The notes beneath the pieces are model-generated. The model worked only from the letters and a program-made list of their open reading frames with translations. It was not told the DNA's origin and did not search any database. DNA of 64,000 nucleotides from Deltaproteobacteria bacterium. GTDB lineage: Bacteria > Desulfobacterota > Syntrophobacteria > Syntrophobacterales > Syntrophobacteraceae. Numbering within the stretch: the stretch's first letter is position 1; every line of letters begins with the position of its first letter. Positions 28,595 to 32,840 of the stretch are shown piece by piece. The stretch spans positions 1 through 64,000 of the forward strand of contig JAJYDE010000004.1 of NCBI GenBank assembly GCA_021777755.1. Direction: 5' to 3'. A program made the translations under genes and the position numbers.

Positions 28595-30004
28595 CTATTT
28601 GCCCAAAGCGGTCCAGTAGGCTCCGAAAACGAAGTGCGACAGGACAAATCCCAGCACAACATTTATTGCCACCCCGGCTGTGAAGGCGCCAAAAGGCTTC
28701 AAGCCGGCCGCCTTGAGTTCCCGAAACCGGGTGGTAAGCCCGATGCTCAGAAAGCAAAAGATAAAAGCCCACGATCTTATGGAAACCAGCGGCTGGATCA
28801 GGTCGGGCTTCAACGTGCTGTTAAATGCTTGCGTCGAGAACCCGGCCGTAACCAGGGTCATCAGCGTGGTGGCAAGAAAAAAGCCGATGACAAATTTGGG
28901 AAAACGCCACCAGATTTCCATTGCGCTGGGCTTTGTTCCGCATTCTTCCTTTTCCCATTTGAGGCAGGCGATCATCGCGAAGACAAAAGACCAGATGCCG
29001 ATCCACATATCCCGGCCAATCACCTTCATGAGCGTAAAGCTCTGAATGGCGGCGTTTTCGTTTCCGGCCATCTTTCCATAGGCGCTTGCGGCGGCAAAAC
29101 CGGCGGCATCGGCGAATTCCGAGGTCCCGATCCATGCCCCGGCAACGCCCGGCGAGAGGTGGAGCGCTTTTGAAACGAACGGCAGAACGATGATCATCAC
29201 AAGCGCCCAGACCACCACCAGGGTAACGGAGGTATAGAGGTCTTCCTTCCTGGCCTTTACCGAACTGGCAATGGCCATGGAGGCGGAGACGCCGCAAACC
29301 GATCCTCCAACGCCGATAACCGAAGCCAACCGCTTGTCGAGTCCGAAGAACCGCGTGGCGACAAAATAGATGGTGAGGCAGGTGGTAAGGGAAATGATCG
29401 TGGCCTGCAGCAGAGCGACGGGGCCGGCGGTGACGATGAGAGTTACGGGAAAGGTTGCGCCCAGAAGGACAATGCCCGTTTTTATGTAGTATTCCACCCT
29501 GAAACCGGCGTCCAGCCATTTGGGCAGTGAAACAACATTGGCCAGGATCAACCCCAGGATAAGGGCCACCAGCGGAGGTTCCAGATTATACCGGGCGGCA
29601 TTGGCCCACCCGCCGATCGAGAACATGATGACCGCAAGGATGTATAAGCACAGGAAGCCGGGAAGGAACTGAGAAGGTTTTATCCCCATTATGGTCGTGC
29701 TGATCCCGAAAACAACCAGCCAGAAAAGAAACTGAAACAGGTAGAGGTGGAAATTTTGTTGAAAATGGGCCCGCAACTGGTCGAACGTGGTCCACTTCAC
29801 TCCGCCCGGATTAATGAACAGTAACTTTACGGCATCGCTTCCCATCCAATAGGAGATCAGGGTAATCACCATGAGCCCGATTCCCAGATAGATCGCCCAC
29901 CAATCCTCTTTGAGGTAGAGTTCCTTCCAGCCCATCGGCGCGGGTCCGAGTGCGCCTTTGCCGGTGTCGGAGACTTCCGGTCCGGGATTTGCCTGATTCG
30001 CCAT
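28595..30004 (-). CDS. YeiH/UPF0324 family putative sulfate exporter
   Basis: A 469-residue integral membrane protein with about 11-12 helices. The C-terminal two thirds match the YeiH (PSE, putative sulfate exporter) family: PPLVALILGLILANVVSLP, EYYIKTGIVLLGATFPV, the conserved GVGGSVCGVSASMAIA, and WIGTSEFADAAGFAAASAYG. The N-terminal 110 residues add extra helices not in the minimal family (YLGIGLMVITLISYWMG). The ATG at 30004 follows AGGAGAGGG. In sulfonate or sulfite users, YeiH-type proteins are thought to export sulfate or related anions; in a sulfate reducer the direction and ion remain open. Confidence 0.85.
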   Translation of the reverse strand: MANQANPGPEVSDTGKGALGPAPMGWKELYLKEDWWAIYLGIGLMVITLISYWMGSDAVKLLFINPGGVKWTTFDQLRAHFQQNFHLYLFQFLFWLVVFGISTTIMGIKPSQFLPGFLCLYILAVIMFSIGGWANAARYNLEPPLVALILGLILANVVSLPKWLDAGFRVEYYIKTGIVLLGATFPVTLIVTAGPVALLQATIISLTTCLTIYFVATRFFGLDKRLASVIGVGGSVCGVSASMAIASSVKARKEDLYTSVTLVVVWALVMIIVLPFVSKALHLSPGVAGAWIGTSEFADAAGFAAASAYGKMAGNENAAIQSFTLMKVIGRDMWIGIWSFVFAMIACLKWEKEECGTKPSAMEIWWRFPKFVIGFFLATTLMTLVTAGFSTQAFNSTLKPDLIQPLVSIRSWAFIFCFLSIGLTTRFRELKAAGLKPFGAFTAGVAINVVLGFVLSHFVFGAYWTALGK

Positions 30005-31905: not shown

Positions 31906-31935
31906 AGCCCCCCTTTAAAAGCGGGGGCTTTTTTT
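31906..31935 (+). terminator. Intrinsic terminator after the transglutaminase-like gene
   Basis: AGCCCCC, a 10-base spacer and GGGGGCT are followed by a seven-base T run. It lies 57 bp after the stop codon at 31849. Confidence 0.9.
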
Positions 31936-32087: not shown

Positions 32088-32840
32088 ATGAACGGAGTAT
32101 TTACCCAAGAAACCATAAAGAAAATAGAGGAAGGCATCCGGCAAAGGTACGCGGCGGCGGCAAAAAGTCCCGAGGGCCGCTTCCGTTTTCCGACCGGGAA
32201 AGCGGGCCTTGAGGCTTTGGGCTATGATCGCGGCATTCTAGCCACTCTGCCCGATGAGGTTTTGGCCTCCTACTGCGGGGTGGGGCAGCCGTTTGCGCTG
32301 GCCCGCATCGAGCAAGGCGAGTCCGTGCTGGACGTGGGTTGCGGGGCCGGAGTCGATACGATCATCGCCGCCGTCATGACCGGACCGCACGGGAAAGCCA
32401 CCGGCATCGACTTTGTCCCGGAAATGATTGAGCGAGCAAAGCAGAACCTTGAAGAGACAAAACTTGACAATGTGGCTTTCGCGCAGGGTTCCGGAGAAAA
32501 TCTGCCTTTCCCGAACGAGAGTTTTGATTGCGTCATTTCCAACGGCGCATTCAACCTCATTCCCGATAAGGCAAAAGCGATGCGGGAAGCGTTCAGGGTA
32601 TTGAAGCACAACGGAAAAATCATGATTGCCGACCAGGTTCTCGAAAAATCCCCACCCTTTTCGAGTCCCGCGGACATCGTTGCAACCTGGGCCAGGTGAC
32701 AAGGCGGGGCCATACCGGGAATGGATTTCCTGGCAATTATCGAAAAAGCCGGCTTTACGGGTTGTGAGTTGGTCTCGGAGACCGGCTTCAACAGTTCCGC
32801 CGTGACCAAAGGCGTTTTATTTCGAGCTTACAAGGAATAA
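32088..32840 (+). CDS. ArsM-like SAM-dependent methyltransferase, candidate selenoprotein (in-frame TGA at 32697)
   Basis: A class I methyltransferase of 250 residues if TGA codon 204 is read as selenocysteine. Motif I is VLDVGCGAGVDTIIAA (80-95). YCGVGQPFA (C63) and SNGAFNLIPDK (152-162) lie where arsenite methyltransferases (ArsM) carry two of their As-binding Cys; the second is Gly here. The frame continues past TGA without a shift through QGGAIPGMDFLAIIEKAGFT to a normal end at TAA 32838. Sec204 falls where ArsM relatives have a C-terminal Cys before a GGA motif. A hairpin at 32715-32733 fits a bacterial SECIS. The ATG at 32088 follows GGGGGCGG; ATG 32076 is an alternative. A nonsense mutation is the competing explanation. 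Arsenic need not be the substrate given the missing middle Cys. Confidence 0.75.
32715..32733 (+). promoter_or_regulatory. Candidate bacterial SECIS hairpin
   Basis: CCGGGAA and TTCCTGG pair over seven bases (one G-U) around the loop TGGAT. The stem begins 15 bases after the in-frame TGA and the loop guanines fall about 23 bases after it. Bacterial SECIS elements have the stem just downstream of UGA, within the coding region, with a G near the start of the apical loop. Confidence 0.6.

Follow-up and report, generated by a model that had tools for sequence, protein, structure and literature searches.

Arsenic is bound by the methyltransferase CmArsM via Cys72, Cys174 and Cys224; the C174A and C224A mutants act on neither arsenite nor methylarsenite, and the C72A mutant still methylates methylarsenite (PMC3877260). 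A selenocysteine (Sec)-containing arsenite methyltransferase was listed in a 2008 GOS survey (PMC2398784) and is listed again, with reference to Fomenko 2007, in a 2026 review (PMC13188914), which also lists Sec families in which the methyltransferase is fused to other modules and names them arsenite methyltransferase (PMC13188914). The window analyzed here (the whole 64,000-nucleotide stretch of DNA) contains a gene whose product, on the basis of sequence comparison, is a stand-alone member of this already described selenoprotein group.

The gene at 32088-32840 and its in-frame TGA

The features of the locus, with the evidence for each, are as follows.

32088..32840, + strand: predicted selenoprotein gene for a stand-alone ArsM-like methyltransferase of 250 aa, Sec204 included (Methyltransf_31, 3.5e-34; ArsM_AhpD_UU, 355 bits, residues 1-249)
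32697..32699, + strand: TGA codon 204, predicted to be read as selenocysteine and equivalent to CmArsM Cys224 (only TGA or Cys in homologues; alignment with solved ArsM structures)
32715..32733, + strand: putative bacterial SECIS-type hairpin, CCGGGAA-UGGAU-UUCCUGG (folding and homologue comparison)
32274..32276, + strand: Cys63 codon, invariant in the Sec clade, two residues before the Cys72 column, which is Val65 (alignment)
32544..32546, + strand: codon for Gly153, at the column of a canonical ArsM cysteine, CmArsM Cys174 (alignment)
32310..32645, + strand: SAM-binding methyltransferase core, residues ~75-186 (Pfam match)
31910..31935, + strand: terminator-like hairpin and T run between the upstream gene and the methyltransferase gene (weak: 1 found vs 2.0 in shuffles)

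The reading frame extends from an ATG at 32088 to a TAA at 32838-32840 and contains one in-frame TGA, at codon 204, and no other in-frame stop. Forty-six codons lie between the TGA and the TAA, giving a product of 250 residues when Sec204 is counted, and the original prediction of a single TGA followed by 46 codons and a natural stop was thus borne out. The product matches the Pfam family Methyltransf_31 (3.5e-34) and a SAM-dependent methyltransferase core is present, which on sequence grounds places the protein among the SAM-dependent methyltransferases of the ArsM superfamily. The gene lies between an upstream gene encoding a transglutaminase-like protein and a downstream gene without assignment that is followed by glyS/glyQ. 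The hairpin at 31910-31935 weakly suggests transcription separate from that of the upstream gene, shuffled sequences yielding 2.0 such hairpins vs the 1 found. No ars genes were found adjoining the methyltransferase gene, and neighbour clustering across homologues revealed no conserved partner gene. A membrane protein gene nearby (28598-30004, - strand; Pfam Cons_hypoth698, PF03601) has no known link to it.

A search that covered 395 genomes from the phylum and 39 from the order provided the homologues, whose codons were re-read from the DNA; the resulting 62 rows represent 61 distinct loci, L002 and L089 being a single one. At the codon-204 column, 48 of 62 rows carry TGA and 14 of 62 carry TGC or TGT, with no other codon present; counted by distinct locus, the numbers are 47/61 (including the window) and 14/61. 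Because 46 distinct loci besides the window share TGA at exactly the same alignment column, the in-frame TGA is not a chance occurrence. The expectation that codon 204 would be either Cys or TGA in relatives therefore held for all 61 loci, and the proposal that Sec occurs in place of Cys agrees both with the 14 Cys rows at the TGA column and with the alignment of residue 204 with CmArsM C224. The nearest relative, L002, from a Syntrophobacteraceae MAG placed in the same genus, is 74% identical and also has TGA at this column. Compared with L002, the frame after the TGA has a dN of 0.10 and a dS of 1.4 (dN/dS about 0.07) and the frame before it a dN of 0.18 and a dS of 2.2, indicating from these substitution rates that the frame beyond the TGA evolves as protein, under purifying selection.

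The genome from which the window derives encodes SelA, SelB, SelD and a tRNA-Sec with anticodon tca, such that all four components (selA, selB, selC and selD) for which a search had been proposed are present and, judging from gene content, the host can make selenoproteins. The SelD gene (L136, contig C50) carries a TGA of its own, within the N-terminal peptide ...RAAGUAAKIG..., and SelD therefore appears to be a selenoprotein itself, with the TGA in an AAGUAAK motif.

The downstream hairpin and probable decoding of the TGA

A hairpin with arms at 32715-32721 and 32727-32733 and the loop UGGAU starts 15 nt past the TGA. Taken alone it is unexceptional (z -1.0 vs dinucleotide shuffles; p 0.025 vs synonymous shuffles), and its weight stems from comparison with homologues rather than from the window. 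When folding was compared with that of synonymous-codon shuffles, the TGA genes gave a mean z of -2.06, with 67% at p 0.05 or below, vs a mean z of -0.40 and 7% for the Cys genes. With a simple search for stems, every Sec row yielded a hairpin of 6 pairs or more and the Cys rows only 5-pair stems, in 4/14, although the rows are related by descent and these fractions hence do not represent independent trials. The sequences of the hairpin arms are unrelated between the three Sec groups (I, II and III) described below. An Rfam scan matched no SECIS family and no other meaningful RNA, returning only weak chance matches. The SECIS-like hairpin with a G in its loop that had been noted downstream of the TGA is present and has counterparts in all TGA homologues.

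The presence of the sel genes, the restriction of the column to TGA and Cys, the purifying selection after the TGA and the association of the hairpin with TGA together provide very good support for selenocysteine. We consider it highly probable (roughly 85%) that UGA codon 204 is decoded as selenocysteine and that the gene encodes a genuine selenoprotein; the decoding would be done by SelB and tRNA-Sec, with the hairpin that follows the codon as their guide. Alternatively, the TGA could be a true stop, with the functional protein ending at residue 203 and the downstream frame persisting as a relic. TGA is normally a stop in bacteria and the entire SAM-binding core lies within residues 1-203, but a relic would not be expected to show strong purifying selection on its codons, nor would a stop explain why TGA is kept across many genera with Cys as the sole alternative, why a strong hairpin occurs only with TGA, or why the genome has Sec machinery, and we regard this explanation as very improbable. 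A sequencing error converting TGC or TGT to TGA, or a recent nonsense mutation, is less probable still, since, although a Cys codon is one base away, the same TGA and the hairpin are shared by independent genomes from different genera and families.

Cysteine positions and the possible substrate

In an alignment with solved ArsM structures, the Sec204 column corresponds to Cys224, the last arsenic-binding cysteine of CmArsM (Cys206 in human AS3MT). At the Cys72, Cys174 and Cys224 columns, the window protein has Val65, Gly153 and Sec204, and the set of three arsenic-binding cysteines of ArsM is therefore incomplete; Gly153 at the Cys174 column is the replacement of the middle cysteine that had been predicted.

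The homologues partition into three Sec groups and one Cys group, and the Sec-containing ArsM proteins thereby fall into three kinds according to the cysteines they keep. In group I (7 rows), cysteines are retained at the Cys72 and Cys174 columns, and the third column is Sec. Group II, which includes the window and comprises 35 loci, is characterized by Cys63, Val65 (replaced by Ile in a single row), Gly153 and Sec204; a branch with 100/98 support, computed after removal of the four columns concerned (63, 65, 153 and 204), separates it from the rest. Cys63 is invariant in this group, yet it lies two residues before the Cys72 column and is not the same residue as Cys72. No Cys members were present within the group II clade in our sample of 35 loci. 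Group III (5 rows) has Sec only, without C63 or cysteines at the Cys72 and Cys174 columns; its members (L061, L062, L074, L075 and L099) have their own unrelated hairpin sequences. The genome that contains the window also encodes a Cys paralogue (L138; contig C39, 24796-25458) in which Cys occupies the Sec204 position and Gly the Cys174 position (motifs ILNGVFNL ... AWCMSGAV); it is possibly a Cys counterpart of the Sec type.

By alignment, Sec204 stands where ArsM has Cys224, which is catalytic and binds arsenic. We infer that the selenolate, probably together with Cys63, would hold a soft metal(loid) or organometal(loid) substrate beside SAM, where the substrate would then be methylated. Homology and the fused relatives are the grounds for metal(loid) chemistry, and we put metal(loid) methylation as the function at about even odds. 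With Val and Gly in place of Cys72 and Cys174, the enzyme probably acts on another substrate than the classical arsenite methyltransferases or binds it in another way. A structure prediction had pLDDT values below 50 at residues 184-210, around Sec204, and was built from six sequences, the extra rows being mostly UbiE-like paralogues; the model is unreliable in this region, and the shared C63-Sec204 site is an unproven candidate.

At somewhat less than even odds, the proteins with C63, Gly153 and Sec204 would constitute a distinct enzyme that is not an arsenite methyltransferase: a selenolate-thiol pair would capture a different soft element, or an organometal(loid), for methylation, the first cysteine being shifted by two residues and the clade offering no Cys counterpart of its Sec. 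It is also conceivable that the Sec enzyme is a classical arsenite methyltransferase in which Sec merely substitutes for Cys224 and As(III) is methylated as by ArsM. Arsenite methyltransferases are the closest relatives with solved structures (E 7e-24), and both NCBIfam and the 2026 review apply that name to the Sec families. However, the loss of two of the three arsenic ligands (to Val65 and Gly153) argues against ordinary arsenite methylation, as does the inactivity of CmArsM C174A on arsenite and methylarsenite (PMC3877260), and Sec group I, which keeps all canonical ligands, is a better candidate for this role than the window clade. We therefore consider the classical role unlikely, and the three-kind split offers a concrete test of the 'arsenite methyltransferase' label for the clade that lacks Cys174. 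A redox or regulatory role for Sec204, such as a reversible Se-S bond with Cys63 and no metal(loid) binding, seems no likelier; redox enzymes make up most of the selenoproteins whose function is known (PMC2398784), all clade members have C63 and some are fused to AhpD-like domains, but group III homologues keep Sec without C63, and the Sec position aligns with a metalloid-ligand Cys.

Relationship to described families

Three NCBIfam models with Sec exceptions align with the window protein along its full length: NF041537 (ArsM_AhpD_UU) with 355 bits over residues 1-249 (cut-off 510), NF041536 (ArsM_DUF2284_UU) with 349 bits over the same residues (cut-off 575) and NF047649 (MTase_UXPK_star) with 282 bits (cut-off 460). 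The score for NF008823 (ArsM), 183 bits, is under the curated cut-off of 263. Group II loci that are fused to AhpD, DUF2284 or UXPK modules exceed the Sec-exception cut-offs, with the fused loci L043 and L042 doing so for the NF041537/NF041536 pair. A count by eye of the 35 group II loci gives about 22 stand-alone forms, 5 with AhpD, 3 with DUF2284 and 5 with UXPK, and some late TGAs in these tails could be further Sec codons. The window protein, which ends at residue 250, has neither a C-terminal partner module nor further Sec residues, and it falls under every fused-family cut-off because the partner modules are missing. The annotation models thus catch the fused forms, and the stand-alone form, being below all three Sec-exception cut-offs, is probably cut at the UGA by routine annotation, as the original prediction had anticipated.

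Among the DUF2284 fusions, L042, L044 and L070 have tails with further in-frame TGAs, which in L042 and L044 sit in repeated GGGUP/GGTUP-like motifs. At L133 in the genome that contains the window (contig C71, 16800-19600), a DUF2284 domain is joined to a methyltransferase-like domain of another kind; this locus has cysteines and lacks TGA. Another DUF2284 homologue of that genome (contig C10, 88669-89244) does carry a TGA but was rejected as a selenoprotein, as the codon appears to be an ordinary stop.

The window protein shares its methyltransferase domain, Sec position and clade with NF041537 and NF041536 but lacks their AhpD or DUF2284 C-terminal module and further Sec. It likewise has the same methyltransferase domain as NF047649, the methyltransferase/UXPK-star double selenoprotein, with Sec at the same place, but without the C-terminal UXPK tail. 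With the Sec arsenite methyltransferase of the NF008823/PRK11873 type it has in common an ArsM-like sequence and Sec followed by xxG (UxxG); the two differ in that L077, the one group I locus scored (326 bits with NF008823, over the 263 cut-off), keeps the Cys72 and Cys174 columns where the window protein has Val and Gly; the reviews do not state which cysteines their Sec arsenite methyltransferases keep. Finally, the window protein resembles CmArsM and human AS3MT in the sequence of its SAM-binding core and in the alignment of U204 with Cys224/Cys206, but it is shorter, without their extra C-terminal region, and it has Sec in place of that Cys and replacements at the other two arsenic ligands.
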